From Dehalococcoides mccartyi (GTDB taxonomy: Bacteria; Chloroflexota; Dehalococcoidia; Dehalococcoidales; Dehalococcoidaceae), in NCBI RefSeq assembly GCF_001889305.1, contig NZ_CP013074.1, positions 1,426,001-1,490,000 of the forward strand: a DNA stretch of 64,000 nt, in the 5' to 3' direction. Position 1 is the first letter of the stretch; each line of letters begins with the position of its first letter. This document shows, piece by piece, positions 746 through 36,182 of the stretch. The translations under genes and the position numbers were made by a program. A model generated the notes under the pieces. The model was not told the DNA's origin, ran no database searches, and worked only from the letters and a program-made list of their open reading frames with translations.

Positions 746-3700
746 CTAACTCGGTTCCTCTGCTCTATTCAATAGTTCTGCAAAATCATAGTTGACGCTG
801 GTAACACCAAAATCGGGTTCTCTACGGAACGGTTGCCTCAGGTAGTGAATTCGATGACTAGTTTCGTTTATAAATTCAACAATAGCTAAAATGAAATCGT
901 CCGGCTTATTCAACGAATACAATATCTCATTACGAGTGACGGTCAGTGTAATTGCGTCAGTAGTCCTGCCTTTAACTTCGAGGAAACGTAGTTTCCCAGT
1001 TCCTGGAACTCGACTTTCAATATCATAACCAACCTTTTCGGCTTCACGATCGATCGGATCAAATCCTAGTTGGCGCTCAATATTCATTACTAATTCGCGT
1101 GCTTTTACCGCAACCGCTAGCTTATCAACATCGGTTTCTAGGGTTTTCAAAGGCTGCCCTATTATCTTCGCTATCAATCCAATTGGAACTATAAGAAGAC
1201 CACCAAGAATAACAGGCGGTAAAGCGGAAATTTGCTTTTCAAGAGTTAATTCAGCAAGTCGATTTTGTAACCGCTCTTGTAAGGCGTCTGCCCGCTTTCG
1301 GGCTTCTCCGGAATTTAGTTTGGCATTAACTTTACCGGCTTGTTCTTGAAATTTAAGAACTTCTGCACGATGGTCCCAATGATTGATTTCTTTTGAAAGG
1401 CGATCCTTTACTGCTCTTTCAGTTTTCGCTATTAAGTCTAACTTTCGGTCACGCACTTCTTTGAGATGATCTGGAACAACATGAGAAATCGCATACCCTT
1501 GTACCGTTTTCTCAAGTTCATGAGTGATCCAACCGCACTCAGGTAAACCTAATATGGTTTCACATTTTGGCTCGTTGTCTTTTAAGGGTCGATAGTCTAG
1601 ATACGGAGCATATTGTGGGTGATACGCATTCCCATTTGAGCCTAATTCCACATAAAGCATCTGCTTGGAAATTACGCATCTATCTCCTGTTCGTGTTGTC
1701 GTACCGTCTTGAATCGCATGTTCTAGATAAAAAAGCACCCTTGGATCGGTCCCCAAATCATTATCATCTACCAAAACTGTGCCTCGGCGTAGCAAATCAC
1801 GATTCCGTTCCAAAATAATGTCTGCAACGACATCAAGCAAGGGATGTCCAGGACATACAAACGTAGCTAATGGCTCGCCAGGTGGTGATATTAGTGTTTT
1901 TTCGAAAACAACCCTTTCATAACGTTGTACTATTGGATTACCTAATCCTATGATGCGATCTCGACTACGGATAATTGATGGCACGTTAGTAATTTCATAA
2001 CGGCGAGGCTCACGCTGTTTGATTACGCCACCTAATTGCTCGAAAGCTTTAAGGAAAAAAGATTCAATATAGTGCGGTTGCAACCTTCGTGCTTCTGCCC
2101 TCTCCATATTCTCTCGAATTCGGTTTACGCGGCTGGAATCGATTGCATCATGAACTAGAGCTCTTTCCTCTAATAAAAGCTGAAGTTGCTTAGTATCAAA
2201 AGCATTAGCTATCACCTTTGTTAAGCGACCTTTAATCTCGGGTTGCTCTCCATATCTAATCGCCTCAATAAGTAAATCACGAAGAGGTTTGCCTTCGAAT
2301 TGGACTTTTCCAAGCACGTCAAATACTCTACCGCCGAGTGCATTTCTAGCTTCTTCAAGTTTTCTTAATAGAGTTTGATATACTTCGCCCTCACGGGTCT
2401 CATTAGCAACCAAATTCCATAAATGACAAACTTCAGTTTGACCAATACGGTGAATACGCCCAAAACGCTGTTCAATACGATTAGGATTCCATGGCAGGTC
2501 GTAATTTACCATTAGATGGGCACGCTGTAAGTTAATGCCTTCCCCTGCTGCATCAGTTGCAAGTAATACTTGAACTTCGGGATCGTTGGTAAAAGACTCC
2601 TGGGATTTTTTCCTTTCCTCTCGTCCCATACTACCGTGAATACATACTATTGCCTCTGAGCGCCCTAATAAGGTACCTATCCGGTCTTGGAGGTATCGCA
2701 AAGTATCGCGATGTTCAGTAAAAATAATTAGCTTCTGCCGCGGCGAAGGAATTGGTTTTTCAATTTTTTCGTTGTTATAAGGAGCTCTTTCCTCAGCGAC
2801 ACCCTGTGAGATTGCTGCTGATGTAAATATTTCCTCAACTAATAGTTTGGCTAATTCCCGCCATTTTTTATCTTCGCCACTCCGGCGAACTGTATTCCCT
2901 AACGATTCTAAATGCTTAAGTGTGTCAATTTCAGCCTTAAGTTCAGCAATAGTTCCTGCGGCTGTTGCTTCATCTAAAACGGCTTCTTCAACCTCAGCGA
3001 CTTCATTTTCGGGTACTTCATCAAGATCATCGATATCTTCTTCGCTATACTTATCCGCTCCAGATTCCAAAGCGTGAACAATGTCACTTCCCCGTTTTAA
3101 CAATTCAATTTCACGTAATTTATTTTCAAGGCGTTCACGTCGCCGACGCAAAGACTGGTAGATCGCTTCTGGAGACGATGCTAGCCTCCGTTGGAGAATT
3201 GTAAGAGCAAACCCAACCGTACCGGCTCTTTTATCATTTTGAAGTTTTTCTGCCCTATTGAATTGTTCTCGGACATATTCAGTAACTTCTTTATAAAGTT
3301 GAGCTTCTCCATCAGATAGTCTATATGGTACGGTATATGCAATTCGTTCATGGAACAGCGGTGTCCCATCAAACTTTACTAGGCTCTCCTTAATCATGCG
3401 TCTCATTAGATCAGATGTATCAATTTGGTGAACACCGTCACGGAAGCGCCCTTCGAACCTATCTCCATCAAGTAATGCTAAAAACAGTTGAAAATCTTCC
3501 TCTTTACCGTTATGGGGTGTTGCTGTCATCAATAGTAAATGGCGTGTTAGTGTAGAGAGCAATTCTCCTAATCTGTAACGCTTTGTATATTTAACCTCTC
3601 CTCCAAAAAAGGTAGCAGACATCTTATGTGCTTCATCACAAACTACTAAGTCCCAACGACAATCTGGCATGCGTAGTTTTGCTTGGACATCTTCATTTCG

Positions 3701-4330
3701 AGACATTTTGTCGAGGCGAACGATAATAAGATTATGCTCACAAAACCAATTTCCAGTACGAGCTGATTCAAAATTATCGTTGGTCATAATTTCGAACGGC
3801 AGGGAGAATCTCTGGTATAATTCATCCTGCCATTGTTCCACCAGGCTACCCGGTGCAACAATCATACATCGCTGCAAATCTCCCCGGGCGATTAGTTCTT
3901 TTATTAGAAGTCCTGCCATAATGGTCTTACCAGAACCAGGATCATCTGCTAATAAAAAACGGAGGGGCTGTCGCTGAAGCATAGTTTCGTAGACACCAGT
4001 AATCTGATGTGGTAGAGGTTCTACTAGTGAAGTGTGAACAGCTAAAACTGGATCGAATAAATGAGCTAGCCGAATCCGATTGGCTTCAGAAACCAAGCGG
4101 AATAAGTTTCCATCACCGTCAAAGCTCCAAGGCCGACCTCGCTCAACGATGTTTAAACGTGACTCATCACTTCGATACAGAATCTCGCTGGCTACTTGTC
4201 CTTTAGGTGATTTGTATGTTATTTCAATTGCATCCGTGCCAAACCATTGGATATTAACAACTGTTACGAGTGAATCTGTCAAAATACCCGCGACTGATGC
4301 ATTTGATTTTATTTCTTCAAGTTTACTCAT
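746..4330 (-). CDS. SNF2-type DEAD/DEAH helicase with C-terminal DUF3883-like domain
   Basis: The 1194-aa protein has a superfamily 2 helicase core: DDPGSGKT (about 129-136, Walker A), DEAH (232-235), a LLLMTATPHNG segment, and in the second RecA lobe DAAGEGINLQRA and NPNRIEQRFGRIHRIGQ. The last 150 residues contain a segment with LEVKGR and ILAIVEF typical of DUF3883, a restriction-endonuclease-like fold. The combination resembles DISARM DrmD-type helicases and other defence helicases, but no DrmA/B/C or methylase is visible here. It lies between a small wHTH gene and an HSP90-like ATPase on the same strand, probably as one operon. DNA translocation or unwinding in defence is inferred. Confidence 0.85.
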   Translation of the reverse strand: MSKLEEIKSNASVAGILTDSLVTVVNIQWFGTDAIEITYKSPKGQVASEILYRSDESRLNIVERGRPWSFDGDGNLFRLVSEANRIRLAHLFDPVLAVHTSLVEPLPHQITGVYETMLQRQPLRFLLADDPGSGKTIMAGLLIKELIARGDLQRCMIVAPGSLVEQWQDELYQRFSLPFEIMTNDNFESARTGNWFCEHNLIIVRLDKMSRNEDVQAKLRMPDCRWDLVVCDEAHKMSATFFGGEVKYTKRYRLGELLSTLTRHLLLMTATPHNGKEEDFQLFLALLDGDRFEGRFRDGVHQIDTSDLMRRMIKESLVKFDGTPLFHERIAYTVPYRLSDGEAQLYKEVTEYVREQFNRAEKLQNDKRAGTVGFALTILQRRLASSPEAIYQSLRRRRERLENKLREIELLKRGSDIVHALESGADKYSEEDIDDLDEVPENEVAEVEEAVLDEATAAGTIAELKAEIDTLKHLESLGNTVRRSGEDKKWRELAKLLVEEIFTSAAISQGVAEERAPYNNEKIEKPIPSPRQKLIIFTEHRDTLRYLQDRIGTLLGRSEAIVCIHGSMGREERKKSQESFTNDPEVQVLLATDAAGEGINLQRAHLMVNYDLPWNPNRIEQRFGRIHRIGQTEVCHLWNLVANETREGEVYQTLLRKLEEARNALGGRVFDVLGKVQFEGKPLRDLLIEAIRYGEQPEIKGRLTKVIANAFDTKQLQLLLEERALVHDAIDSSRVNRIRENMERAEARRLQPHYIESFFLKAFEQLGGVIKQREPRRYEITNVPSIIRSRDRIIGLGNPIVQRYERVVFEKTLISPPGEPLATFVCPGHPLLDVVADIILERNRDLLRRGTVLVDDNDLGTDPRVLFYLEHAIQDGTTTRTGDRCVISKQMLYVELGSNGNAYHPQYAPYLDYRPLKDNEPKCETILGLPECGWITHELEKTVQGYAISHVVPDHLKEVRDRKLDLIAKTERAVKDRLSKEINHWDHRAEVLKFQEQAGKVNAKLNSGEARKRADALQERLQNRLAELTLEKQISALPPVILGGLLIVPIGLIAKIIGQPLKTLETDVDKLAVAVKARELVMNIERQLGFDPIDREAEKVGYDIESRVPGTGKLRFLEVKGRTTDAITLTVTRNEILYSLNKPDDFILAIVEFINETSHRIHYLRQPFRREPDFGVTSVNYDFAELLNRAEEPS

Positions 4331-5415: not shown

Positions 5416-7167
5416 TTATGAATAAACATATTCTTCAATAGTCCATTTAGTAGTAGAGTTATCTGGGCCGATTATTAATTTCTCACCTGTTAGATCCTCA
5501 TCTACTTGTGCTAGAAAACTTACTAGATAGGCACAATCCTTATTTGGAGTTCGCCTAAGAGCCCTACCACATCTTTGTATCTGTTGTCTTTGACTTGTAG
5601 ACCCACTCATAATCACTATTCCTGTTAAATCAGGAATATCTAAACCCTCATCAAGAGTCTGAACAGCACATAAACAATTGAATATACTCTTCTCAAATTC
5701 AACAAGTACATTTTGACGTTCTTCAGTCATCATCCCTGAATGATGTAATCTTATTTTTTCCTTACCGAGAGCACCTACGAGTAGGTTTTTAGTATTCATA
5801 CATTCTTCGATTTCTTGATGGAAGAAAATCCATCTTCCATTGGTAAACTGTCTAATCCAGTATTCCTCCGAGAGGAATGATTTTAATAGCTCCCATTTAT
5901 CTTGAGCCTTATTGAATAACCTTCGTCTCTTGATATAGATATTTTTTAATATATGGATTTTCTTAATTAAATCCCACACTTGTTTACATATAACAGTATT
6001 ACGACGCTGTAATTCCACTAGCTCGCGTTCTAACTCCACAAGGTAGGCTATACTTCCACTATTGATTTTATTTTGATCTACCTTTATCACTCTACTATTA
6101 TTTATTCTTTTCTTAATTTCTTTTATCTGCTCGCAAAAGTTTTGATGGGATTTGTTTTCATTATAATTTAGCGATACCATATAGTTCTTTTGGATCACAC
6201 TAGTTAAAACTCCATCTTCTACGGCTCTGGACAGAGAATAGGAATAGATTGGACCGTCAGACGTCACACAATCAAAATCCCGGTAGACTTCGTCCATTAC
6301 TCCGTCACTTCGAAGGGGTGTTGCAGTCAAGCCAAGAGTATAAACACTTTCAGGAATATGACTTACAAATCTAGATAAGGTTTGTTTAGCTCCAAGATGG
6401 TGTGCCTCATCAACTACGATTAAGTTATCTCTGCATGATTCACTTAATTGTTTTAATAATTCACAGCCATAACCAAGATCCTCTCTAAGAATCATCGCTT
6501 GCTGAGTAGCAATAACAATCTTGGTATTTCTATTCACCATGTCCGCATTACCATTCCCTATGTAGCAGTAATTATCTTCACGAATCTTGGGAAAACACTC
6601 ATGAAGCCTTTCTTGCCACTGATCGAAAAGAGGTTGCCTGGGTACAATGATACAGACTATTCCATCTGGAAAATCATTATAAAATTTTTTCATACAGGCA
6701 AACGCCAATCTAGTTTTGCCAGTACCGGTTGCTGCTTCGACAATCCCTCGCTTGCCTTCACTTGTATACCATTTTTCCAATGCTTCCTCTTGCCATGGGT
6801 ACAAATCATTCTCAACTCCGAGTAATCTGTTGGGTTCTATTTTAGTTTTTAATGAAAGTCCTTGAATATGGTCGTAAACTTCACTTAAAGTCGATTTGTT
6901 TAGGCGATATTTTGAATTTAGTTGCTTATTAATCTCAATCACATGGTTGAGAATATAATTTAGCTTATATCCCGATATCTTGCTTACTCTCCATTTATGT
7001 GCATGATTTGAGGGTTGAATTCTATATTCATCATATGGCTCTATCGGCAAAGACCAATAGTCCTTTAAGTCACCAACATTTTTATAAATGAGGTTAATTT
7101 TATGCTGAGAAAGGATAAATGTATGTCCATCCATGTTAAATTCGATAAATCCATCTTCTAAACCCAT
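5416..7167 (-). CDS. SSL2-like DEAD/DEAH helicase
   Basis: This 583-aa superfamily 2 helicase has Walker A ATGTGKT (146-152), a VVDEAHH box (251-257), LGLTATPLRSDG, and C-lobe motifs QTLDEGLDIPDL and QRQQIQRCGRALRR. The middle holds a charged coiled-coil-like insertion (residues about 330-430). The first 120 residues match nothing I recognise. The family (COG1061) includes helicase subunits of restriction and defence systems, but no nuclease or methylase partner is visible beside it. The start ATG 7167 has GGGAG about 8 bases upstream. It is separated from its neighbours by AT-rich spacers, so it is probably monocistronic. Confidence 0.8.
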   Translation of the reverse strand: MGLEDGFIEFNMDGHTFILSQHKINLIYKNVGDLKDYWSLPIEPYDEYRIQPSNHAHKWRVSKISGYKLNYILNHVIEINKQLNSKYRLNKSTLSEVYDHIQGLSLKTKIEPNRLLGVENDLYPWQEEALEKWYTSEGKRGIVEAATGTGKTRLAFACMKKFYNDFPDGIVCIIVPRQPLFDQWQERLHECFPKIREDNYCYIGNGNADMVNRNTKIVIATQQAMILREDLGYGCELLKQLSESCRDNLIVVDEAHHLGAKQTLSRFVSHIPESVYTLGLTATPLRSDGVMDEVYRDFDCVTSDGPIYSYSLSRAVEDGVLTSVIQKNYMVSLNYNENKSHQNFCEQIKEIKKRINNSRVIKVDQNKINSGSIAYLVELERELVELQRRNTVICKQVWDLIKKIHILKNIYIKRRRLFNKAQDKWELLKSFLSEEYWIRQFTNGRWIFFHQEIEECMNTKNLLVGALGKEKIRLHHSGMMTEERQNVLVEFEKSIFNCLCAVQTLDEGLDIPDLTGIVIMSGSTSQRQQIQRCGRALRRTPNKDCAYLVSFLAQVDEDLTGEKLIIGPDNSTTKWTIEEYVYS

Positions 7168-7499: not shown

Positions 7500-8477
7500 T
7501 TAGCTGTATATATCCAGCATTCCCTGTGCAGTCTCTTTCACCTTTTCTCTCAGCTTTTCGGGTGCCAGCACTTCTACCCGTCCCCCCCAACTGAGCACCC
7601 AGGAGACAAAATCCGGCGTATCAGCCAGGCAGAATCTAACCAACACAGACTGGTCCGGCAAGATTTCGCTGCGCTGGGAGGGATGAAAAGTAGTTTCCTG
7701 CATTATCCGGCCTACCTCCGGAACGAATTTCAGCTTTATATCTTTGACTTCGCCATCTACCAGTATTCCCCAGTAAGGGGAATGGTATTTATCTATATCA
7801 AAAGCCGCAGGTATTTCATACTCTTTATCCAGCATTTTCAATGACCGGATACGTTCAAGCTTGAAGGTGCGGATTTCGTTGCTTTTACTGCAGCGGCCAA
7901 TTAAGTAAGCTGAATGCCCGGCTGCCGCCGGTTCAATAAAATAAGGGGAAACCTCGCGCTCAGAATAATCCTCCTTACCCAAAGCCCGGTAGATTATGCT
8001 GACTTTTCTTTGTTCAGCCCAAGCCCGGCAAAGCAGAGCCATAGTCTGCTGGTTGTCTTCATCAGTTATTCTGTCATGCATTTTATCTAAAGTTTGGCTT
8101 ATCTGCCTTTGAAAGGGGACGGGCATAATGGAATTAAGTTTGGTAAAAGTGGACTCTATATCCGGATTGTATTTATTGCAGTAATTGTAAAGCAAACGAA
8201 TAGCCAGAAAGACAGATAAACCCTCGGTAAGTGTAAAGTGGATTGGCGGCAGGAAATGCCCTTCCATAACCTTCCACAAGTTTTTATCAGTTGTCAGGGG
8301 GACTTTCAGGACAGTCTCAAGGTCTCTCAAATCCCGGTAAGCAGTTCGTTTGGATACCTGGCATAACCGGGCAATATCTGTTACCGAAATACCTTGAGGG
8401 TTCTGACAGAGCAGGTGTTCAACCCTTAAAAGCCGGGCCAGCCGGTTCTGTTTCCCGTCCTTGTTGACCAAACTCAT
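7500..8477 (-). CDS. WYL-domain transcriptional regulator
   Basis: The protein has an N-terminal helix-turn-helix (RLARLLRVEHLLCQNPQGIS and SKRTAYRDLRDLE), a central WYL domain (VSIIYRALGKEDYSEREVSPYFIEP, SAYLIGRC) and a C-terminal WCX-like part ending in VLSWGGRVEVLAPEKLREKV. I chose ATG 8477 (325 aa) because GAGGCGG lies just upstream; a longer frame reaches 8534. WYL proteins sense ligands, possibly nucleotides or nucleic acid, and often control CRISPR and other defence loci. It lies beside a NucS-like gene and diverges from the series leading into cas genes, so control of that series is a reasonable inference. Confidence 0.85.
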   Translation of the reverse strand: MSLVNKDGKQNRLARLLRVEHLLCQNPQGISVTDIARLCQVSKRTAYRDLRDLETVLKVPLTTDKNLWKVMEGHFLPPIHFTLTEGLSVFLAIRLLYNYCNKYNPDIESTFTKLNSIMPVPFQRQISQTLDKMHDRITDEDNQQTMALLCRAWAEQRKVSIIYRALGKEDYSEREVSPYFIEPAAAGHSAYLIGRCSKSNEIRTFKLERIRSLKMLDKEYEIPAAFDIDKYHSPYWGILVDGEVKDIKLKFVPEVGRIMQETTFHPSQRSEILPDQSVLVRFCLADTPDFVSWVLSWGGRVEVLAPEKLREKVKETAQGMLDIYS

Positions 8478-8574
8478 GTCCGCCTCGCATTTTTGTTGAT
8501 TATATAACGCTGGCACCAGTTTTGGTAGATACATTTATCCCCATTTATTAAAACCTATAGCATTAATTGGATAT

Positions 8575-9045
8575 TTATCCTTCCTCTCCGGCAGCTATCT
8601 TCAGGCTAAAAGAATACCTCCGCATACACAACTCGGGGCAACCGGACGCGGCGCACCGGGCAGATTCACTGAAAGAACACGCCAGCAGGATTCCTTTTAT
8701 CCCTCTGAGTTTTTCGAATGAACCCGAACCGCACCAGCTGGACAAGCCAGCTAGTGTTTGTTCAGGAGGAATATTTACCAGGGTTTTATCCAGCCAACCC
8801 ATATAAGCCAGCAAACGCCCTATATCTTCGGCAGTGGCTTCGGACGGAACAACTTCCAGCACATAAAGTTCAGTTTCCGGTTCATTAAGGAGTAATAAGT
8901 GGGCTTGGCCGATTGCAAGGTTGGCAAACCGAGCATGAAATTTTAAGGGTTGGTCAAAAGCAATTGCCAGCAACTCAGGTTCATTTTCCAGAAGTTCAAT
9001 TACCTGTCCTGCCGGAAAACTTGTGCCCTCATTATTTTCAGTCAT
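8575..9045 (-). CDS. NucS/EndoMS-like PD-(D/E)XK-fold protein, probably inactive
   Basis: The 156-aa protein contains a stretch like the C-terminal nuclease domain of NucS/EndoMS and DUF91 proteins: LYVLEVVPSEATAEDIGRLLAYMGWL (about 60-85; here only the pattern counts), then GILLACSFSESARCAASG (118-135). In active relatives the strand reads E-x-K; here it is E64-V-V, so the catalytic lysine is missing. It is only half the usual NucS length and lacks the DNA-binding N-terminal domain. It precedes the WYL gene on the same strand. A structural or sensing role is inferred; the fold assignment is moderately sure. Confidence 0.55.
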   Translation of the reverse strand: MTENNEGTSFPAGQVIELLENEPELLAIAFDQPLKFHARFANLAIGQAHLLLLNEPETELYVLEVVPSEATAEDIGRLLAYMGWLDKTLVNIPPEQTLAGLSSWCGSGSFEKLRGIKGILLACSFSESARCAASGCPELCMRRYSFSLKIAAGEEG

Positions 9046-9089
9046 TTTATCCTCCTGACGGGTGGCAAATACACATACTAAAACAAATC

Positions 9090-9144
9090 TGTGACAACTG
9101 TCTGTCGTAAAAAATAATGGGAAATTGTGACAGCAAACCTGTCA
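9090..9144. promoter_or_regulatory. divergent promoter region with TGTGACA repeats
   Basis: The 145-base gap between the leftward NucS-like gene and the rightward AAA+ gene holds two TGTGACA copies (9090-9096 and 9126-9132). Each lies in an inverted repeat: GACAACTGTC near 9092, and TGACAG-5 bases-CTGTCA at 9128-9144. This is a plausible operator for the nearby WYL regulator; the binding protein is inference. Confidence 0.45.
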
Positions 9145-9190
9145 ATGCCCAAAAGTATAATCATTTTTATTTGAATTAAGGTTAGAGAAA

Positions 9191-10501
9191 ATGAGTGAAT
9201 CCGGGGTTGAAGTGGAGATGCTGGAAGCTGCTATTGACGGTGAAGACTGGCAGCTAACGTCCAGACAGGTGCACCTGAAGCGCCAGAAAAAGAACCAGAC
9301 CGAGATTGACCAGTTTATAGACTCGGAAGCCCGGACTTATACCAGTGTAACCGCACCGGATTATTACGGAGACCTGCTGGCCTGGGCGCTGGAAACCTAT
9401 CTGAAACGAAATAACTGGGAGATCTTGTACCGGTTGGGCTACCGGAATGACCGGCCGGATTATACCGGTATTCAGGTTTCAGCTGAAGAAACACTGGACT
9501 TGATGACTAACGGTCAGCTGCTTATCCGCCAGGGAGAAGTACGAATAGCTGCTACCCTGGATGTTACCCGCCGCGGAGCAGCTTTGCAGCTGGAATCTAA
9601 GCAAGCTGACCAGTGTCAATTGGACACCTTTAAATCGGAAATTAAACGGCTTATTAGTCAGGAAAACTTTTATAAGGGGCAGAAGATTGAATATACCGGT
9701 TTTCTGCATTTTATTAAACCGGCAGCCCAAATCTGGGATAGTGTTATTATTAACCCGGAAGATAAAGAGGAGATTTATCTTAACTCAATTCATTTTCTGA
9801 ATAATCAGACCAAGTTCGTCCGGTTGGGTATACCCGGTAAGCGGGGGATTTTGCTGGTTGGCGAACCCGGAACGGGCAAAACTATTATCTGCAAAGCCCT
9901 CATGTCCAAAGCCAAAGGAATTACCTGCCTGACGACTGATTGTTATTCCCTTAGCCAATCTTTCTATGTTGACGAGTTATATAAAATTGCCAGGGAGTTA
10001 AGTCCCTCTATCGTATTCATTGAAGACCTGGATTTAATAGGTAAAAGCCGGGACGAATTCGGAGGTGAAACAGCCACTCCCCTCAGCGCTTTACTGGCTG
10101 CCCTGGACGGCCTTGAAGCAAATTACGGGGTAGTTACCATTGCAACGACTAACTTACTTGAGCAGCTGGATGATGCCCTGATTCGCCGTCCTGCCCGTTT
10201 TGACAGGGTAATAAAACTCAGCCGGCCAGACTTACCCCAGCGGCAGGAAATAATCAACCGGATTTGCCGCAAAATACGTCTCTCAGATGAGGTGCGTAAA
10301 TATCTGGCCGCCAAAACTGCATACTACACCCCAGCCCAATTACAGGAGGTTATCTACAGTCTGGTCATCATCACTCAGGCAAAAAAAGAGGGAAGAAATG
10401 ACCTGGGTCAGCTTACTAAATCAGATATTGATAACACCCTCCGCCGGATATATGGTATAAAAGATACCCAGATAGGATTTAATCTAGCTAGAAAGATATA
10501 G
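9191..10501 (+). CDS. AAA+ ATPase, CDC48/FtsH-like classic clade
   Basis: The 436-aa protein has one AAA module in its C-terminal half: GEPGTGKT (224-231), VFIEDLD (275-281, Walker B), TTN (319-321, sensor 1) and the arginine-rich RRPARFDR (332-339). The first 200 residues, with a hydrophobic KFVRLGIPGKRG linker before the Walker A, match no domain I know and probably bind the substrate. There is no protease or membrane segment. It opens a plus-strand series (zinc-ribbon membrane protein 10 bases downstream, DUF2779 nuclease, UDG-like protein) that leads into cas3. Remodelling of a protein or nucleoprotein is the likely activity. Confidence 0.8.
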   Translation: MSESGVEVEMLEAAIDGEDWQLTSRQVHLKRQKKNQTEIDQFIDSEARTYTSVTAPDYYGDLLAWALETYLKRNNWEILYRLGYRNDRPDYTGIQVSAEETLDLMTNGQLLIRQGEVRIAATLDVTRRGAALQLESKQADQCQLDTFKSEIKRLISQENFYKGQKIEYTGFLHFIKPAAQIWDSVIINPEDKEEIYLNSIHFLNNQTKFVRLGIPGKRGILLVGEPGTGKTIICKALMSKAKGITCLTTDCYSLSQSFYVDELYKIARELSPSIVFIEDLDLIGKSRDEFGGETATPLSALLAALDGLEANYGVVTIATTNLLEQLDDALIRRPARFDRVIKLSRPDLPQRQEIINRICRKIRLSDEVRKYLAAKTAYYTPAQLQEVIYSLVIITQAKKEGRNDLGQLTKSDIDNTLRRIYGIKDTQIGFNLARKI

Positions 10502-10511
10502 GTGACTAAAT

Positions 10512-10982
10512 ATGAGCTGGTTTAAAAAGCATCTTCACTGGACACTGGTTATCGGCTTGCTGATTATACCGAATGTTTGGTATGCATCTTTATTTATAAC
10601 CGATTTTTACGGCTTTACAGGTGACACAGTACCTGATAAATATGGCTTTGTTATAATCCAAATCATAACAGGACTTGTATGCATTATCTGGCCATTTATC
10701 CTGTCCGGCTGGGTACTGAAGCAAAAAGGGCGGCATCTGGCCTGGCTTTTGCTGCTGTTTATACCTTCTGGTTGGATAAGCCTGTTTATTCTTGATAACC
10801 ACCGCACAAATCCTCCTTCCAGACTACCAGATACCAAACCGGAAAACCCAATACTTCAACCCGCAACTGACGCAGACAACACAGCGGAGGGTGTGGCCTA
10901 TTGCTCCCGGTGCGGAAACAAACTCTCCCCCGGGGATTTATACTGCCGGACTTGCGGCAACCGAGTGGAACAAACTAGATAG
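10512..10982 (+). CDS. membrane protein with C-terminal zinc ribbon
   Basis: The 156-aa protein has three hydrophobic segments (about 10-30, 45-67 and 75-93) and then a short soluble tail. The tail ends in a zinc ribbon, YCSRCGNKL and YCRTCGNRV, with two CxxC pairs. Such ribbon-tailed membrane proteins are common and of unknown function. It follows the AAA+ gene by 10 bases and is very probably co-transcribed with it. Confidence 0.7.
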   Translation: MSWFKKHLHWTLVIGLLIIPNVWYASLFITDFYGFTGDTVPDKYGFVIIQIITGLVCIIWPFILSGWVLKQKGRHLAWLLLLFIPSGWISLFILDNHRTNPPSRLPDTKPENPILQPATDADNTAEGVAYCSRCGNKLSPGDLYCRTCGNRVEQTR

Positions 10983-11128
10983 CCGGGTATTATAAATTAG
11001 ATGCTTCACAACCATGCTGAAAGGGTGAGGGTGTTTAAAAGAGGGTCTGGGATTCAAATAAGTAAACGCTGATTTACACTATCTGGTCAGGTTTATTATT
11101 TAAACCATAATACCCCAGGAGTAAGATA

Positions 11129-12601
11129 TTGAGCTATAAGAAAGGTCTAAGTAAATCTAAATACCTAATGGGTCTTCAATGCCCCCGCCTGCTTTGGAAG
11201 GCAACTAATGATGCTGCCAATATGCCGTCTGTCAGCCCGTCTACCCAGTTTGTCTTTGAGCAGGGGCATCAGGTCGGCGAACTTGCCAAGCAGCTATACC
11301 CGGGTGGACTAAACCTTAAAACCGAAAACTTCAGCCAGAACCTGAAAGATACCAAAGAGGCTCTTGGCTGTGTCTTGCCTGTCTTTGAAGCTGGGTTTGC
11401 AACTGAACGTCTGTATTCCCGGGTAGATATACTCGCCCCGGCTGAAGGAGACGGCTGGGATATCATAGAGATAAAAAGTACTACCGACATAAAAGAGGAA
11501 CATTTGTATGACGTAGCCTTTCAGCGTTATTGCTGCCGGCTTGGCGGGCTGAATATCCGTAACTGTTACCTTATGCATATTAATAAAAACTATATAAAAA
11601 ACGGGGGAATATACCCGGCTGAGTTTTTTACTTTAAAGGATATAACGCAAGAAACAGAAGGATACTCCGGCAATCTGGAAGGGAACATTGAAGCCATGCT
11701 GGCTATAATTGATTCAGATACCTGCCCGGAAGCCCGCCCGGGTAAACAATGCACCTCTCCCCATGACTGTCCGCTTAAAGACCAATGCTGGGCAGATTTG
11801 CCGGAACACAATATATTCACCCTGTATTACGGCAATAAAATCCTGCCGGAACTTCAGGCTCAGGGTATTTGGGATATCCGCCAGATACCGCCTGAATTTA
11901 AACTTAACCCCAAACAGCTAATCCAGAAAAATTGCGCTGTTTCCGGCCAGGTTTATACCAACCCGGCTGAGATAGGCGCGTTTCTGAATAAACTGGAATA
12001 TCCCCTTCACTACCTGGATTTTGAGACTTTTGCCACGGCCATACCTGTATATGACTATACCCGTCCCTACCAGAATATTCCGTTTCAGTTTTCACTCCAC
12101 ATCCAGCAAAGTCCCAATTCGGAAACCAAACACTATTCGTATCTGGCTGAAGACGGGTATGACCCCCGTCCGGCTTTTCTGTCTGCCCTTAAGTCAAGTA
12201 TTGCCCCGCAGGGAAGCATACTGGTTTACTCCGAGATATTTGAAAAAGCCAGACTTAAGGAACTGGCAGCCGCTTTCCCTGAATATGCAGGGTGGGTAGA
12301 AGGGATACTTGGCAGGATTTTAGACCTGATAGTCCCTTTCAGGGATTTCAGTTATTACCACCCCGGGCAGCACGGAAGTGCATCTTTAAAACATGTTATG
12401 CCCGCGCTGGCCGGGCTAGGTTATGATGAACTGGAAATAGGCGAAGGCCAGACTGCCAGCCTCAGGTTCATGGAATCTGTTTTCGGCAACCTGCCACCAG
12501 ACGAAATCAGAAAAATACGGGCTGATTTAGAAATATACTGCGGCCAGGATACCGGCGGCATGGTGGAGATAGTCAGGAAACTTCGGGAAATTGGCGGCTA
12601 G
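11129..12601 (+). CDS. DUF2779 protein: RecB/Cas4-like nuclease fused to DEDD exonuclease domain
   Basis: The 490-aa protein starts at TTG 11129 with CCAGGAG upstream. The N-terminal half is RecB/Cas4-like: D100, E114-I-K116 and a QxxxY-like helix near 132. Four cysteines fit a Cas4/AddB 4Fe-4S cluster (C18, then C208-x5-C214-x5-C220). The C-terminal half begins YLDFETF (D297, E299), the first motif of DEDD 3'-5' exonucleases, as in DUF2779. Cas4-like proteins process DNA ends, some for CRISPR adaptation. Type I-E normally lacks Cas4, so this gene upstream of a I-E operon is notable. A shared role with the cas genes is inferred from position only. Confidence 0.8.
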   Translation: MSYKKGLSKSKYLMGLQCPRLLWKATNDAANMPSVSPSTQFVFEQGHQVGELAKQLYPGGLNLKTENFSQNLKDTKEALGCVLPVFEAGFATERLYSRVDILAPAEGDGWDIIEIKSTTDIKEEHLYDVAFQRYCCRLGGLNIRNCYLMHINKNYIKNGGIYPAEFFTLKDITQETEGYSGNLEGNIEAMLAIIDSDTCPEARPGKQCTSPHDCPLKDQCWADLPEHNIFTLYYGNKILPELQAQGIWDIRQIPPEFKLNPKQLIQKNCAVSGQVYTNPAEIGAFLNKLEYPLHYLDFETFATAIPVYDYTRPYQNIPFQFSLHIQQSPNSETKHYSYLAEDGYDPRPAFLSALKSSIAPQGSILVYSEIFEKARLKELAAAFPEYAGWVEGILGRILDLIVPFRDFSYYHPGQHGSASLKHVMPALAGLGYDELEIGEGQTASLRFMESVFGNLPPDEIRKIRADLEIYCGQDTGGMVEIVRKLREIGG

Positions 12602-12650
12602 TTTTAGAGCAATATCATAAATTTGATTAGTACTAAAAAGGATAATATTT

Positions 12651-13262
12651 ATGAAAGATATATGGTACGGGGATAAACGTGACCTGGTTAAGTGGGGAGT
12701 ACTGCTCACACTCTCAAAGGAATTTTCAGCCAAGCGTATATTGCAGGTTGCTTATTATAAAAAAGAGGAATTTGAGCAGCTTGAAATAGACGGCTCTAAA
12801 TATAGTATCCCGGAAGAGGTAAAAAACCACTTCAGAAATATGCTGAATATACGGAATATGCCCAATACAATCCCGATAGATGTTTTCACCGATGAATTTG
12901 ATAATCGGGATTCCTATTATGAAAAAGTTATCTATAACATTACGAGTGGCATACATCCCTGTCTGGTTTTTCTGGACCCGGATACCGGAATAGTCCCGGC
13001 CAGTGGTCACTATAAGGATAAACATGTGCTGGAAGATGAACTGAAAACCATCTGGGATAAGCTAAAAAATGGCGACATTCTGGCCTGCTACCAGCACCGC
13101 ACAAATAGAAATAGCAATAAAGACTGGGCCATGGAAAAGAAAGACCAGTTTGAGCGGGCATTAGGTTTAGCTGCTGGTAGTTCCAAATTGGCTCAGGGGT
13201 CGAAAACAGCTGGAGATATGGTTATTTTTTACTGCCAGAAAATATGCGACATTAGTGAATAA
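12651..13262 (+). CDS. conserved-looking hypothetical protein, TcmP/methyltransferase-like
   Basis: The 203-aa protein starts at ATG 12651 with AAAAGGA upstream. It contains MKDIWYGDKRDLVKWG at the N-terminus, LVFLDPDTGI near residue 107 and ILACYQHRTNR near 143. The DPDTG turn after a hydrophobic strand recalls motif IV of Rossmann methyltransferases, as in three-Cys-motif partner (TcmP) proteins, but the SAM-binding glycine loop is not clear. It may be a degenerate methyltransferase. It sits between the DUF2779 and UDG-like genes with short spacing, so the same transcript is likely. Confidence 0.6.
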   Translation: MKDIWYGDKRDLVKWGVLLTLSKEFSAKRILQVAYYKKEEFEQLEIDGSKYSIPEEVKNHFRNMLNIRNMPNTIPIDVFTDEFDNRDSYYEKVIYNITSGIHPCLVFLDPDTGIVPASGHYKDKHVLEDELKTIWDKLKNGDILACYQHRTNRNSNKDWAMEKKDQFERALGLAAGSSKLAQGSKTAGDMVIFYCQKICDISE

Positions 13263-13332
13263 TCGGGTTATTGCTTCCGAGGAAAATCTGTTATAAAGTA
13301 GCAAATATATTCATAAAAAGGAGAATAAGGCC

Positions 13333-14106
13333 ATGGATAACCCTTTATTTCCCTTCGGACAACCAATAAAAACCCTTACGCAGGAAGACCGCACCCCCAA
13401 GAAAGTCTTTGTCCTGGGTGTATATGCCAGCGCTGTTCATGCCAAATGGCTGGATGCCAATGGCAAAGTACTAATAAACGCACTGGCAGTAGCCAGTGAA
13501 CCGTATATTTTCTGGCGAGGGGAGAATGCCGAAACCATAATCAGTAAAATACCTGTACCCCAAGGCGCAGGCAGCTTAATTTCTGCCGGTGAGAGATTTA
13601 ACGGGCCGTCAGGCAGAGCGCTGGATGAATATTTTATTGCACCTCTTAAACTAGAGCGAAAAGATGCCTGGCTATGTGACCTTGTTCCGCACAGCTGTAA
13701 GAATACTAAACAGGCTAAAGCTATCAAAAATGCTGAGAAAAATTATAGTTTAACCCCTTCAAATTTCCAGGAAAAACCTAAAGCACTGGCAGATAACCAG
13801 CGCAGGCAAAGTATTCTGGATGAAATAAAAGAATCAAAAGCAGAGGTTTTAATAACCCTGGGTGATGAACCGATAAAATGGTTCCTTTCACATTTTGACG
13901 CAGAGAAACGGGAAAAACTGGCGGATTTCGGGCAGGATAAGGAAACTTACGGGAAGTTACACCAGATATCCCACCCCGATATAAGTATCAAGGTCTTGCC
14001 GCTGGTGCACCCCAGGCAAGCCGCTAAGCTTGGCTTGTATTCCAGGGAGTGGAATGAACTGCATACAGACTGGGTAAATAATCATGCCCACGGCCTATTG
14101 GGTTAG
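13333..14106 (+). CDS. uracil-DNA glycosylase-like superfamily protein
   Basis: The 257-aa protein has the layout of the UDG-like fold: FVLGVYAS near 26-33 (motif 1 strand and loop), WLCDLVPHS near 113-121, VLITLGDEP near 175-183, and LPLVHPRQAAKLG near 221-233 in place of the catalytic HPS loop. It differs from housekeeping UDGs, and the insertion around 125-165 is unusual. It could be a DNA repair enzyme or a nucleic-acid-binding member. It lies 76 bases before cas3 and is preceded by AAAAGGAGAATAAGGCC, a strong ribosome site. Confidence 0.65.
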   Translation: MDNPLFPFGQPIKTLTQEDRTPKKVFVLGVYASAVHAKWLDANGKVLINALAVASEPYIFWRGENAETIISKIPVPQGAGSLISAGERFNGPSGRALDEYFIAPLKLERKDAWLCDLVPHSCKNTKQAKAIKNAEKNYSLTPSNFQEKPKALADNQRRQSILDEIKESKAEVLITLGDEPIKWFLSHFDAEKREKLADFGQDKETYGKLHQISHPDISIKVLPLVHPRQAAKLGLYSREWNELHTDWVNNHAHGLLG

Positions 14107-14182: not shown

Positions 14183-16861
14183 ATGGTAAATGGTCCTAAC
14201 TTGAAATTATGGGCAAAGACTGGAAGAGATGGTGATCTTCACTATCATCCACTGCTCTACCATATGCTTGATGTAGCAGCAGTTGCCACCTATTTATGGG
14301 AACTTTTAAGTGAAGACCAGCGCAGGCGAATAGGCCATATAATAGGCAGCGAAGCGCGAACCATAACCTTATTTCTTGCAGGTGGACATGACATTGGCAA
14401 GGCCTGTCCGGGATTCCAACAACAAGCACCGCAACTATCCAAATTGATAGAACTACCAATGTCATTAAACAGCTGCCATAGACCTCATGCCTTCGTCAGT
14501 GCCTGCATATTAAACCGATTTTTCACAAATTTATTAGGCCAAATTGCCGGGGGTCATCATGGTATTTTCCCACAACCTCTAGATCTGCGTATGGGGTGTG
14601 ACACTCTTGGAAATATTGAATGGGAAACTGCGCGGGATGGATTATTACAAGAACTAGCAACGGCACTGAAAATAGATATTAATGATGATACCGAATGCAA
14701 GCCTCAAATCATAGACCCATTTATTGTTCCAATGCTGGCTGGACTTATTTCGATTGCAGACTGGATAGGTTCCAATCAGGATTTTTTCCCATGCCTGACC
14801 GAACCGGGACAACAGTTTGACATAATAGCTGACAAATATTTTGAAAGTGCAAAAGACCGAGCGGGGAAAGCGCTCCGAGAATTAGGTTGGATGCCGGAAG
14901 TTACCTTTGCTAAAGAAGCACCTTTTACCAGTGTTTTTTCAAATTTTATACCTAATGATTTACAGAAGTCTACGGAGCATATGGCAATAGAGCAGGACTC
15001 TCCCTACCTTATGATCATTGAAGCTCCTACAGGTCAGGGCAAGACGGAGGCGGCTCTATATGCAGCTGACCTGGCTCTTTGCCGCGGGTTTGCCAGAGGT
15101 ATTTACATCGCCATGCCAACTCAGGCAACCAGCAATGCCATGTTCAAACGGGTTCTGTTTGATTACTTAAAAAAGCGCGGACATAAGGGCAAGCTAAATT
15201 TACAGCTTGTTCATGGTAATGCCTTGCTTGCCGGAATAGGAGAAGCCCATAAAGGAGAAATCTCTGATTTTAAAATTACCGATATATGCGCTGATAATAC
15301 ATACGCTGATACCGAAGCTCAGTCATGGTTCACCGCAAAGAAACGGCCTTTGCTTTCCCCGTTTGGGGTGGGCACTATCGACCAAAGCCTGCTGAGCGTA
15401 CTCCAGACCAGACACTGGTTCGTCAGGCTTTTCGGGCTTGCAGGTAAGGTAGTTATATTTGATGAAATACACGCCTATGATGCATACATGAGTACCATGC
15501 TTGAAAGGCTTTTACACTGGCTGGCAGAGGTTGATTGTACAGTGATTCTTTTATCAGCAACACTACCAAAAACGAAAAGAACAGCTCTTATTCATGCCTA
15601 TTCCGGTCAGAACAGCTTGGAGAAACAGTGCTATCCACGCATTACACTGGCCAAACCTAGACATCATATTACACAAGAAACTGAAACACCCATAATTTGT
15701 AAGGAAATACCTGCCGAAGATAGCCACTGCATATTTCTGGATTTTTCTAAGAATGAACCGGAAATTTTAGCTGAAGAATTAAGACGCAAACTGGAACACG
15801 GTGGATGTGCGGCTGTGATTTGCAATACAGTCAACAGCTCAATCAAATTATTCCGATATCTGAAGACTAACTTGAATGAAACTGAGTGCCTGTTATTTCA
15901 TGCCCGCACATTACAAGCATGGCGGCGCAAACGTGAAGATGAGGTCTTGCGTAAATTTGGCAAAGGAAAGAAACAGTCTGATGGAACTTATATAAATCCT
16001 GACCGTCCTTTTCGTGCCATACTGGTTGCAACTCAAGTAATAGAACAAAGCCTGGATTTGGACTTTGATTTAATGTTTTCTGAAATTGGGCCTGTCGACT
16101 TACTCCTCCAGAGAGCAGGGAGGCTTCATCGCCATTTACGCACCCGTCCGGCAGATTTAGAGAAACCACAATTAACAATTCTTTGCGGGGGAAACCTGTT
16201 AGGTCCACCTCCTGATACATTTGGCGATGATATTGAGCACATATATAGCCGCTATATACTTCTCCGAACATGGCTAGTGCTAAGAGGGAAAAACAAGATT
16301 GAGATTCCCGCCGAAACGGAAAATTTAATAGAGAAAGTATATGGCACAGATAACGAACTGTGCCAGCCGGACTGGCTTAAAGCCCTAGAAGAAGCAAAAA
16401 GAGACTTAACATATACACAACAAGAATCTCAAAAAGCTGCCTCCAGATTACTAATTAATCCACCAAATAATTCAGAGGATGTTATCAGGCAGTTCAATTA
16501 CCAGTTATTTGATGATGATGATCCTGAAGTGCATAAAACTCTTAGGGCGGCAACACGAGAGGGTGATCAGCCCATTATGCTGGTGATAGTAAAGGCTAAC
16601 TCTGTCATTATTTCCGAACCTACTCTTGACGAAGTCAGAGACCTGCTGGACCACTCTGTCATGCTAAGTCTTAAAGGGCTTTATCAGGAATTAATATGTA
16701 ATTACCAAACGCCAAAGGAATGGAGAGATAATACCCACCTTAATCATGCCCGTTTAATACGTCTTGATGAAAACAGCCGAGCAAAGATAGGGGATTATAT
16801 CTTAACAGTAGATGAAACCCTCGGTATTATGATTGAAAAGGAGAGTAAGGATAATGGCTGA
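14183..16861 (+). CDS. cas3: CRISPR-associated helicase/nuclease Cas3 (type I-E)
   Basis: I chose ATG 14183 (892 aa), which has AAGGT 8-12 bases upstream; an upstream ATG at 14084 would overlap the previous gene. The HD nuclease half shows HYHPLLYHMLD and GGHDIGK. The helicase half has EAPTGQGKTEAA (Walker A), IFDEIHAYD (DExH), LLSATLP, QVIEQSLDLDFD and LLQRAGRLHRH. Cas3 is recruited by Cascade and degrades the displaced target strand in the 3'-5' direction. It leads an unbroken operon, and its stop overlaps the start of cas8e. All motifs needed for activity are present. Confidence 0.97.
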   Translation: MVNGPNLKLWAKTGRDGDLHYHPLLYHMLDVAAVATYLWELLSEDQRRRIGHIIGSEARTITLFLAGGHDIGKACPGFQQQAPQLSKLIELPMSLNSCHRPHAFVSACILNRFFTNLLGQIAGGHHGIFPQPLDLRMGCDTLGNIEWETARDGLLQELATALKIDINDDTECKPQIIDPFIVPMLAGLISIADWIGSNQDFFPCLTEPGQQFDIIADKYFESAKDRAGKALRELGWMPEVTFAKEAPFTSVFSNFIPNDLQKSTEHMAIEQDSPYLMIIEAPTGQGKTEAALYAADLALCRGFARGIYIAMPTQATSNAMFKRVLFDYLKKRGHKGKLNLQLVHGNALLAGIGEAHKGEISDFKITDICADNTYADTEAQSWFTAKKRPLLSPFGVGTIDQSLLSVLQTRHWFVRLFGLAGKVVIFDEIHAYDAYMSTMLERLLHWLAEVDCTVILLSATLPKTKRTALIHAYSGQNSLEKQCYPRITLAKPRHHITQETETPIICKEIPAEDSHCIFLDFSKNEPEILAEELRRKLEHGGCAAVICNTVNSSIKLFRYLKTNLNETECLLFHARTLQAWRRKREDEVLRKFGKGKKQSDGTYINPDRPFRAILVATQVIEQSLDLDFDLMFSEIGPVDLLLQRAGRLHRHLRTRPADLEKPQLTILCGGNLLGPPPDTFGDDIEHIYSRYILLRTWLVLRGKNKIEIPAETENLIEKVYGTDNELCQPDWLKALEEAKRDLTYTQQESQKAASRLLINPPNNSEDVIRQFNYQLFDDDDPEVHKTLRAATREGDQPIMLVIVKANSVIISEPTLDEVRDLLDHSVMLSLKGLYQELICNYQTPKEWRDNTHLNHARLIRLDENSRAKIGDYILTVDETLGIMIEKESKDNG

Positions 16862-33911: not shown

Positions 33912-33935
33912 AAATGAGTGTTACTATTTCCTGAA

Positions 33936-34208
33936 CTAGGCTTTCTTTGCCCTTCGAGCAGCTAACTGCCAGGTGACTGCCAGCACGATAATAGATGGCA
34001 ACCCAGTTACCAACAAGAACATATAAGCCGCTTTTGGTTCTACTTCTGCCAGACTGCCGAAGTAATTCTGGATAGTAAAAAGAAGCAATCCCAAACCCAG
34101 AACGCCTATAACCCACTCATACCAGGATAATGAAATTTTCCTAGTGCGTAATCCCATCATAAGCCCCAGAAATGAGACTCCAAGAATAAGACCAATTAAA
34201 AACCACAT
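33936..34208 (-). CDS. rdhB: reductive dehalogenase membrane anchor
   Basis: The 90-aa protein has three hydrophobic helices (WFLIGLILGVSFLGLMMG; WYEWVIGVLGLGLLLFTIQ; AYMFLLVTGLPSIIVLAVTW) and ends QLAARRAKKA, the usual RdhB pattern. I chose ATG 34208 by comparison with the paralogue at 53962-54234, where only this start is in frame. It lies 20 bases after rdhA and would anchor that enzyme outside the membrane. Confidence 0.9.
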   Translation of the reverse strand: MWFLIGLILGVSFLGLMMGLRTRKISLSWYEWVIGVLGLGLLLFTIQNYFGSLAEVEPKAAYMFLLVTGLPSIIVLAVTWQLAARRAKKA

Positions 34209-34228
34209 AACTATCATTTCTCCTTTAA

Positions 34229-35674
34229 TTAATAACCACCATGTTTTGAAAAAGAAGTTGTATCCCATCCCATCGATGGTAGGGATAAATCCCACCAGTC
34301 TTCTTTCTCTTCCCCGGACTTCGCCCCATAACCAAAGGTCTTATCCGCTTTCCACAGAAATTCGTTAAATAGTGGAGTGGTAGACAGTGTGGCCTTAACC
34401 ACATCATGTACCATGGCTGCGCCATTTACATTAAAAGTACATGTAGCCATACAGGTGCCACACCCGCCTTCAAAACAGTACATCCAACACTCTATATGGT
34501 TTGCGTAGAACATCCGCTTGCCGGCAGGATGGATAATATCCGGTTTCCCATACAATGAGGGCAATTCCCAACTCGGTTCCTTATCATAAGGGATTACCTG
34601 AGTCGGACAGGTTTGAGCACATTTATTGCAGGTTTGGCAAAAGCGCCAGATACCGGAATCTATAGGCGTGGTGGGTTCTAACGGCAAGTCAGTTATAAAT
34701 GTGAAAAACCCTGAAACTGGCCCATAGTCCGGAGAGATACAATACCCGCTATTACGGCTTGATTCCGCCAGACCGGTAAGAATAGCACTCACTGCTGCAG
34801 GCATAGGGCCAGCCTGTGGTACAGGATAACCATAGCAATGATACCCTATACCTCTGATAAACTCCTGAAAAGCCGGCTGAAGCATGCTGAAATGGCGATA
34901 GCGGGATACATTGGCTGCAAACTGCAATGATGATCTGTCGGAAGTACGATACATTTCCCGGGACATAGGCAAAGACATAGATATTTTGTAAAGCTTCCTA
35001 TCAGGGAATACATATTTATCAGCATCTTCGTAACCAATATCTACATCTTCAAATATCTGTCTCTTATTAGGGACTTGTTTATGATAAGTGTAGAATACTT
35101 TTTCCTTCTCCAGACTGGAAATTTCGCCAAAACCAACCATACCGGCACCAAGAAAGGTAAGAACACTACGTACCATTCGGCTGTTTTCCTCAGGAGTACC
35201 CTCCCATTTAGGAACACCGGTTGTTGCCGGGGCAGGAATAAGGCCAGGGCCCATAAAAGATATACCGTGGATCATCATCGGTACAATGGAACTGAATCCC
35301 AAAGCCTGGTCTCGCAAAGTTTTCCCAGGGGTATTATTGATGGCAGCTTCAACGTTAGGAGACATTATATTCGATGATAAACGCCGTTTTACCTCTTCAC
35401 TTCCAAGGTAGTGAATCTGTGTTTCAGTCTGCTGTCCGCTAGCTCTACCATCCGGTGCAGTCAGCATATCCCAATCTACCTCAAGAGTGGGTTGATACAA
35501 TTCTCTATCTTTTACCCACCATGGTCTTTTGTTTGCTGCAGACGGTGAAGCAATTACCTCATCAAGGTCCTTAAACACCGGCGCGGCAGCAGCGGCAGTA
35601 CCAATGCCGGCTCCCGCCAAACCCAAAGCCCTAACGAAATCACGACGGCTTACTATTGAATGAAAATTGGACAT
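34229..35674 (-). CDS. rdhA: reductive dehalogenase catalytic subunit
   Basis: The 481-aa protein has a Tat signal (SRRDFVRALGLAGAG), KWEGTPEEN and two cluster motifs: CQTCNKCAQTCP (346-357) and, in unusual form, CWMYCFEGGCGTCMATC (396-412). RdhA enzymes use a corrinoid and two 4Fe-4S clusters to remove halogen in respiration. The second motif, with Cys spacing C-x3-C-x4-C-x2-C-x3-C, differs from the other dehalogenases here except its paralogue at 54256. I do not recognise the substrate. rdhB follows. Confidence 0.93.
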   Translation of the reverse strand: MSNFHSIVSRRDFVRALGLAGAGIGTAAAAAPVFKDLDEVIASPSAANKRPWWVKDRELYQPTLEVDWDMLTAPDGRASGQQTETQIHYLGSEEVKRRLSSNIMSPNVEAAINNTPGKTLRDQALGFSSIVPMMIHGISFMGPGLIPAPATTGVPKWEGTPEENSRMVRSVLTFLGAGMVGFGEISSLEKEKVFYTYHKQVPNKRQIFEDVDIGYEDADKYVFPDRKLYKISMSLPMSREMYRTSDRSSLQFAANVSRYRHFSMLQPAFQEFIRGIGYHCYGYPVPQAGPMPAAVSAILTGLAESSRNSGYCISPDYGPVSGFFTFITDLPLEPTTPIDSGIWRFCQTCNKCAQTCPTQVIPYDKEPSWELPSLYGKPDIIHPAGKRMFYANHIECWMYCFEGGCGTCMATCTFNVNGAAMVHDVVKATLSTTPLFNEFLWKADKTFGYGAKSGEEKEDWWDLSLPSMGWDTTSFSKHGGY

Positions 35675-35837
35675 ATTCCATTTCTCCTTTTAGTTTGATT
35701 GCGTCCTTTCCCTATGTCACCTTGTTTTCTCTAACTTTCGTACGTCCTCCTCTTAACCATCATTGCTTATTTATACTCAATTCTATAAAAGGCGTGCGGG
35801 TTTTTAATCGTACTATATACGTATTCGTTATCATCAT

Positions 35838-35880
35838 TAAGTGCCAAGGGATGTCACATATGTGCTCCCCAACAGTGCCC
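35838..35880. promoter_or_regulatory. GTGC-rich conserved upstream element of rdhA
   Basis: The 43 bases start TAAGTGCC, then GATGTCAC, GTGCT-CC and AGTGC, at steps of 12, 10 and 12 bases, so on one face of the helix. The same pattern occurs upstream of the next rdhA (38181-38223) with different bases between. Such conservation between diverged promoters points to a regulator site, probably for the nearby LuxR-type regulator. Confidence 0.6.
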
Positions 35881-36015
35881 AAGGCACAGCATAACCTGAT
35901 AAACCAGTTTACATATTAGTAAACTCCCAATTTTTCAACCGGAAATGCCCAAAAGTCATAAAACCACATGATTATTGCGGCGGTGAATAGCGGCTAGTCT
36001 TGCTAAAAACTAAAT

Positions 36016-36117
36016 CTATTTAGCCCTTCTAGCCACCAGTTACCAGACAACCAATAGCAGTACGAGACCAATAACCCCGAATATCAGTGACCCCATCCAT
36101 GCTGACAAAGACACCGG
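36016..36117 (-). pseudogene. rdhB: rdhB fragment with in-frame stop
   Basis: The minus strand encodes SAWMGSLIFGVIGLVLLLVVW, then a stop at 36040-36042 and LVARRAK, then the normal stop. It matches the end of intact RdhB (SAWMGALIFGIIALILLGVAWQLSVRK). The start and two thirds of the gene are gone. It is the scar of a lost rdhAB pair and is also present in copy B at 56049-56150. Confidence 0.7.
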
Positions 36118-36182
36118 AGGAAGATGGAATGGGACTGATACTTTAAAATGAACTTGGCTAAATACTAGCCCATAAATAACAA

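Follow-up and report, generated by a model that had tools for sequence, protein, structure and literature searches.

Among the regulators that carry a WYL domain, DriD is an activator triggered by single-stranded DNA (ssDNA); its pseudo-palindromic sites overlap the -35 element at a constant distance from the -10 element, and it activates a divergent operon as well as the nuclease targets bapE, which encodes an endonuclease, and recJ (PMC12340889). SiwR, another activator of this sort, acts through an imperfect palindrome (PMC10693628), and WYL proteins of the BrxR family often regulate defence systems (PMC9122601). The nucleases of the COG2251/DUF2779 family consist of a DUF83-like PD-(D/E)XK domain joined to a DEDD exonuclease domain of the RNase H-like kind (PMC3985635). 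Here we describe a locus of Dehalococcoides mccartyi in which a WYL regulator gene stands divergent from genes for an AAA+ ATPase and a DUF2779 nuclease, at positions 7500-12601 of the window (the whole 64,000-nucleotide stretch analysed, 1,426,001 to 1,490,000 of contig NZ_CP013074.1). The source genome (G000) is a single contig of 1.52 Mb; G-numbers denote the genomes compared, and L-numbers the loci cut from them.

The genes from 7500 to 12601 form a WYL-AAA-nuclease cassette of their own, marked by a shared operator and lacking any conserved link to CRISPR-Cas. We read it as self-standing, and as a regulon in which a DriD-type WYL protein controls an AAA+ ATPase and nucleases, with a probability of about 0.62. 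A first-pass annotation of the same DNA had noted seven open reading frames here, all of which we find, and had suggested that together they could be an unrecognised defence or adaptation module that continues into a type I-E cas3 gene. An unrecognised nucleic-acid cassette is indeed present and, as that annotation held, it is not a standard CRISPR accessory set; the proposed extent and CRISPR link have to be given up, as what looked like one module comprises three units of different origin.

Comparison with described regulators and nucleases

When the profile of the WYL family was compared with the PDB, DriD (8tp8/9pfq) was the best match at about 1e-19, followed by PafBC at 5e-16, with BrxR last at 1e-4. 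The window protein has an arginine motif, RTFKLER, and is 76% identical to the copy in another genome of the genus (G027) and 40-46% identical to four others. The DriD regulon of Caulobacter crescentus (bapE, recJ, didA) is like the present locus in its HTH-WYL-WCX regulator, its palindrome overlapping the -35 region with constant spacing to the -10 box, its divergent target operon and its nuclease targets. It differs in having the operator ATACGAC-N7-GTCGTAT rather than TGACA-N6/7-TGTCA, and the target genes here encode an AAA+ ATPase and a Cas4-like/DEDD nuclease; furthermore, the gene for DriD is not activated by its own product, while one of the two operators in the window (operator 1) faces the WYL operon. 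The mycobacterial SiwR and PafBC are likewise ssDNA-sensing WYL activators for genotoxic stress, and SiwR controls a neighbouring operon through its imperfect palindrome near the -10 element, although PafBC is a heterodimer with another motif and SiwR has DinB/YfiT-like target genes. We propose that the WYL gene product is an ssDNA-responsive activator of the cassette.

Repressors of the BrxR/CapW type also stand at the edges of defence loci and bind inverted repeats, and they suggest a different account of the cassette, as an anti-phage system in which infection would release such a repressor, leaving the AAA+ ATPase and Cas4-like/DEDD nuclease to degrade phage DNA. The setting in a defence island would suit this account, with HmaA, a PbeA-like helicase, a DUF1156 methylase and DUF499/HEPN genes upstream and the type I-E operon downstream, as would the patchy distribution of the AAA gene (14 of the 323 genomes of the class), the PLD-helicase and restriction-type genes among the neighbours in relatives, and the common role of BrxR-family WYL proteins in regulating defence (PMC9122601). 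However, the similarity to BrxR is weak, DriD and PafBC being nearer; the nucleases are widespread, housekeeping-like genes; and an operator over the -35 region at a fixed spacing from the -10 box suits an activator better than a repressor. We consider this account possible, with the balance tilting against it.

The 156-residue protein encoded beside the regulator has no direct match in the family library. Its relative in G569 passes the Pfam cut-off for NucS_C (28.3 bits versus 24) and has an intact active site (PDILL...VELK), and it is through this relative that the first-pass label "NucS-like" is borne out. The window copy reads AHLLLL...LEVV at these positions, with H replacing D, and thus lacks the intact D and E-x-K of NucS; the catalytic D and K are lost and the site is degenerate. 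Among the 156 genomes of the order the gene is found in G000 and G027 only, a viral-sequence search with the protein found nothing, and its structure prediction, with a pLDDT of 38, was not used.

The AAA+ ATPase has its own N-terminal domain of about 190 residues, an intact Walker A motif, a Walker B motif reading IEDLD, and both the sensor asparagine and the arginine finger region. Its phage relatives match at 26-37% only. The core is related to IetA of the IetAS system, which pairs an AAA+ ATPase with a subtilisin-like protease; identification as IetA was rejected, the score being 59.5 bits against an NCBIfam cut-off of 510, with no protease family among the neighbours scanned.

The DUF2779 protein has the two-domain fusion of the COG2251/DUF2779 RecB-like nucleases. 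Its N-terminus is a Cas4/RecB-like PD-(D/E)XK domain with cysteines, which matches Cas4 weakly (Pfam 0.0018, PADLOC Cas4 6e-8), its C-terminus is a DEDD 3'-5' exonuclease domain, and the catalytic residues of the protein are conserved. We rejected its assignment as Cas4, since the Pfam Cas4 score of 18.9 bits is below the cut-off of 22.7, the domain is fused to DUF2779, and the gene is not beside cas1. No earlier description of DUF2779 paired with WYL-AAA was found in the literature searched.

Operators and promoter geometry

The WYL gene is divergent from the AAA gene in the window, in G027 and in seven further Dehalococcoidia genomes (G033, G057, G193, G291, G752, G569 and G707). The region between the two genes carries the operator TGACA-N6/7-TGTCA, exact at six of these nine loci and with one mismatch at three. 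Exactly 11 nt past the operator, in the AAA direction, all nine AAA promoters have a -10-like TANNNT box; at any other offset from 3 to 25 nt, such a box is seen at none or one of the nine. G027 carries both operators as in the window (Table 1). This geometry is that of a DriD/SiwR-type activator, which is an analogy and not a proof.

Across eight genomes there are 46 exact operators, 14 of them inside WYL-AAA clusters (binomial P ~9e-18, some genome sizes being rounded), and a -10 box accompanies 12 of the 14 cluster operators versus 3 of 22 sites examined elsewhere (Fisher 2.6e-5); the motif was discovered in these very intergenic regions, and both values describe clustering and geometry rather than an independent prediction. 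The operators ahead of other nuclease genes come closest to such a prediction: they precede RNase_H_2 in G057 and G752, PDDEXK_1 in G193 and, with one mismatch, in G569, and the NucS-like gene of G569. Other cluster operators stand ahead of a PLD-helicase gene (G033) and a lipoprotein gene (G193). A two-mismatch, operator-like site in the gap before the window's DUF2779 gene (11074-11089) is at chance level. Another contig of G569 (L168, 3410 and 5011) carries the operator twice in identical form, at a distance of 1.6 kb and each time with a -10 box; the second copy (5011) is upstream of a transposase-like open reading frame.

Table 1. Features of the cassette and its downstream neighbours, in window coordinates
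Feature	Position	Strand	Basis or remark
WYL/WCX transcription regulator (HTH-WYL-WCX), DriD/PafBC-like	7500..8534	-	Pfam WYL 1.8e-16, WCX 1.6e-16
NucS-like PD-(D/E)XK protein, 156 aa	8575..9045	-	alignment with intact G569 homologue
-10-like TAGTAT of NucS-like/WYL promoter	9075..9080	-	11 nt from operator 1
Operator 1, reading CGACAGACAGTTGTCA on the minus strand with a single mismatch	9092..9107	-	faces NucS-like/WYL; same arrangement in G027
Operator 2, TGACAGCAAACCTGTCA	9128..9144	+	faces AAA; single exact match in 64 kb; conserved at 9/9 WYL-AAA loci
-10-like TATAAT of AAA promoter	9156..9161	+	exactly 11 nt after operator 2
AAA+ ATPase of classical type with a CDC48/FtsH-like core	9191..10501	+	Pfam AAA 1.5e-23
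Small membrane protein, C-terminal zinc ribbon (CxxC...CxxC)	10512..10982	+	Pfam zinc ribbon; counterpart between AAA and DUF2779 in G027
Fused nuclease DUF2779	11129..12601	+	Pfam 3e-42
ORF203, Rossmann methyltransferase-like protein, facultative member	12651..13262	+	AlphaFold model, structural matches; first 43 residues after DUF2779 in G027
UDG-superfamily protein, orphan gene outside cassette	13333..14106	+	PF03167 28.0 bits versus cut-off 24.3
cas3 of ordinary type I-E operon, separate unit	14183..16861	+	followed by cas8e

If the regulator works as its described relatives do, ssDNA from damage or from an invading genome would bind the WYL domain, by analogy with DriD, SiwR and PafBC. 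The WYL dimer would then hold the palindrome, overlapping the -35 region and fixed at 11 nt from the -10 box, and would activate rather than repress, recruiting RNA polymerase both ways, to its own operon from operator 1 and to the AAA, zinc-ribbon and DUF2779 genes from operator 2. The induced ATPase may remodel a DNA-protein substrate, possibly anchored by the zinc-ribbon membrane protein, and would be coupled to the Cas4/RecB-like and DEDD exonuclease, which would trim or destroy the DNA; in relatives, separate RNase_H_2, PDDEXK and NucS-like genes behind the same operator might do this job. The NucS-like subunit of the window, its catalytic residues lost, may only bind. The end result could be repair, phage defence or both.

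Recurrence in relatives

In G027 (1,469,720 bp) the cassette genes are found in identical order with no cas genes: WYL and the NucS-like gene are divergent from AAA, the zinc ribbon, DUF2779 and the first 43 residues of ORF203, with one additional gene, for a 185-residue coiled-coil protein, between the zinc ribbon and DUF2779. The ORF203 fragment is followed by transposase-related remnants and then smpB. D. mccartyi 195, at 1.47 Mb, has been described as having no cas genes (PMC4635342).

A DEDD exonuclease gene, either RNase_H_2 or DUF2779, is within about 5 kb of AAA at eight of the nine WYL-AAA loci, and most of the genomes concerned carry just one or two DEDD gene copies. DUF2779 is found around the WYL-AAA pairs of G000, G027, G033, G057 and G291 (near AAA in G027 and G033, and at most 7 kb away in G057 and G291), and RNase_H_2 around those of G057, G193, G291, G752 and G569. 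Nucleases of the PD-(D/E)XK kind are represented by PDDEXK_1 in G193, G752 and G569 and by NucS_C in G569. No DEDD gene was found near the seven AAA loci that have no WYL partner, some of these contigs being short.

This recurrent set of genes might also be read as serving repair alone, a regulon of the DriD type that answers DNA damage independently of SOS and plays no part against phages. RNase_H_2, PDDEXK and an adenine-glycosylase-like gene all occur within the same clusters, the regulator is similar to DriD and PafBC, and DriD itself controls an endonuclease and recJ (PMC12340889). However, the patchy, island-borne spread of the cassette and the truncation in G027 suggest a dispensable, exchanged trait and not core repair. 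We would rate this reading at somewhat short of an even chance. The adenine-glycosylase-like genes are those of G752 (L133 1680-2858) and G291 (L090 3718-4875), and the G752 cluster also encodes an Nmad3 nucleotide-modification protein.

Several observations weigh against a DriD-type regulon of ATPase and nucleases, in addition to the manner in which the motif was discovered. The similarity to DriD is moderate and lies mainly in WYL-WCX, repressors of the BrxR kind bind palindromes too, and two of the 14 cluster operators have no -10 box. The ninth WYL-AAA locus (G707) has no nearby nuclease, its contig ending within the AAA gene. DUF2779 and RNase_H_2 are present in many genomes without AAA, which in the case of DUF2779 means most genomes of the order, and nuclease activity therefore need not depend on the ATPase. 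Finally, the WYL-linked AAA proteins do not form one clade in the AAA tree, and partners have thus been exchanged.

Such switching of partners, along with the patchwork character of the island and the transposase-related remnants in G027, might even suggest that unrelated cargo assembled by chance in an integration hot spot and only resembles a cassette. Neither the operator at nine loci, with its fixed 11-nt spacing, nor the recurring nuclease neighbours would be expected by chance, and for 7500-12601 we consider this explanation very improbable, although it is the best view of the UDG-like gene and the cas operon downstream. A bolder version of the favoured reading, a previously undescribed Dehalococcoidia defence class in which a DriD-like WYL protein senses invader ssDNA and induces an AAA+ ATPase that drives Cas4-like and DEDD nucleases (whether fused in a single protein or encoded by separate genes under common regulation), seems to us rather unlikely.

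Downstream neighbours and the defence island

The operators that define the cassette are at 9092-9144, and no intergenic operator with two or fewer mismatches precedes ORF203, the uracil-DNA glycosylase (UDG)-like gene or cas3; the first-pass extension of the cassette through the UDG-like gene is thus not borne out. ORF203 had been called methyltransferase-like, for which there is moderate support: its AlphaFold model (pLDDT 70) has a fold like that of Rossmann methyltransferases (Foldseek 8e-5 to 1e-3, VIA Z 9.0), but it has no convincing family in the library and no clear GxGxG or SAM-binding motif. It followed DUF2779 ancestrally, yet is found elsewhere too, and is probably a separate arrival in the same defence island. 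Plasmids searched yielded no match to ORF203. A close relative in a genome of the same family, G031 (L053 9705-10292), is near what appears to be another defence system, with a large ATPase and PAPS-reductase-like proteins as neighbours (judged by eye).

The UDG-like gene is missing from the other 155 genomes of the order. Motif 1 of family-4 UDGs is GEAPG; the window protein has GVYAS. We found the gene at 25 genome loci, in the Anaerolineae and other phyla, and on three viral contigs, all in unrelated contexts, and also on Variovorax plasmids; there was none in the phage collection. A partnership with cas3 was rejected, as the flanks of these 28 loci hold no recognisable cas gene in blastp searches with the window's own cas proteins, which could miss a very divergent one.

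The type I-E operon most likely begins with cas3 at 14183 and continues with cas8e, cse2, cas7, cas5, cas6, cas1 and cas2, ending at 22683, with 11 repeats from 22725. The plus-strand gaps from AAA through cas3 are 10, 146, 49, 70 and 76 bp, and no plus-strand terminator-like stem was found in the intergenic gaps up to cas3, in a scan that overall performed at chance level. The first-pass statement that the genes run into cas3 without a clear break holds for the sequence, and because there is no terminator-like site between the genes, transcriptional read-through into cas3 is possible.

Within the order, type I-E was detected in three genomes only. In G140 a different WYL gene (34% identity) is directly before the type I-E cas3, and AAA, the UDG-like gene and ORF203 are not there. 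With the cassette in G027 without cas, the UDG-like gene elsewhere without cas, and the cas operon of G140 without these genes, the cas operon is an independent neighbour, adjoining the cassette in this genome with no conserved linkage; like the UDG-like gene, it is a separate arrival in the defence island. The shared strand, short gaps and missing terminator-like stem do speak for one module of defence or adaptation that starts at WYL, includes UDG and extends into cas3. Against it are the eight other WYL-AAA loci, all without cas, the 28 loci of the UDG-like gene, the type I-E operon of G140 with its own WYL gene, and the absence of an operator near cas3, and we consider it the least credible of the explanations. 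A CRISPR accessory or adaptation module was rejected on gene content, the genes not travelling with cas in relatives, and the suggested role in adaptation finds no support. The survey of gene neighbourhoods thus found independent occurrence in relatives for the UDG-like gene and cas, and not for WYL, AAA and DUF2779.

In G140 (L140 7976-17668) WYL and cas3 have the same direction. Its cas1 and cas2 are 81% and 68% identical to those of the window, while cas3 to cas6 are just 31-42% identical. These values suggest that the adaptation genes and the effector genes do not share one history.

Further upstream, an HmaA-type helicase gene (746-4330; PADLOC, 1667 bits) and, preceding the window (L095, G000:1406001-1426000), DUF1156 methylase and DUF499/HEPN_Swt1 genes apparently make up a defence system of the Hma kind, located in the island that also holds the cassette. 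The PbeA-like helicase (5416-7167) is shorter than the PADLOC models and has no visible pbe partners. Elsewhere in the window, a reductive dehalogenase gene lies on a 6.3 kb segment that occurs twice (33924-40239 and 53950-60273; 20 kb apart, 96.3% identity).

Genes that adjoin cas3 should not, on this evidence, be assumed to be CRISPR accessories. It is established that WYL regulators sense ssDNA and occupy defence loci, but their targets are known in few cases. Here, one WYL family is linked to a definite group of genes, for an ATPase and nucleases, through an operator that has a fixed promoter geometry and recurs in nine genomes, and since the operator is shared and its geometry fixed, the regulon is predictable and open to binding and reporter tests.

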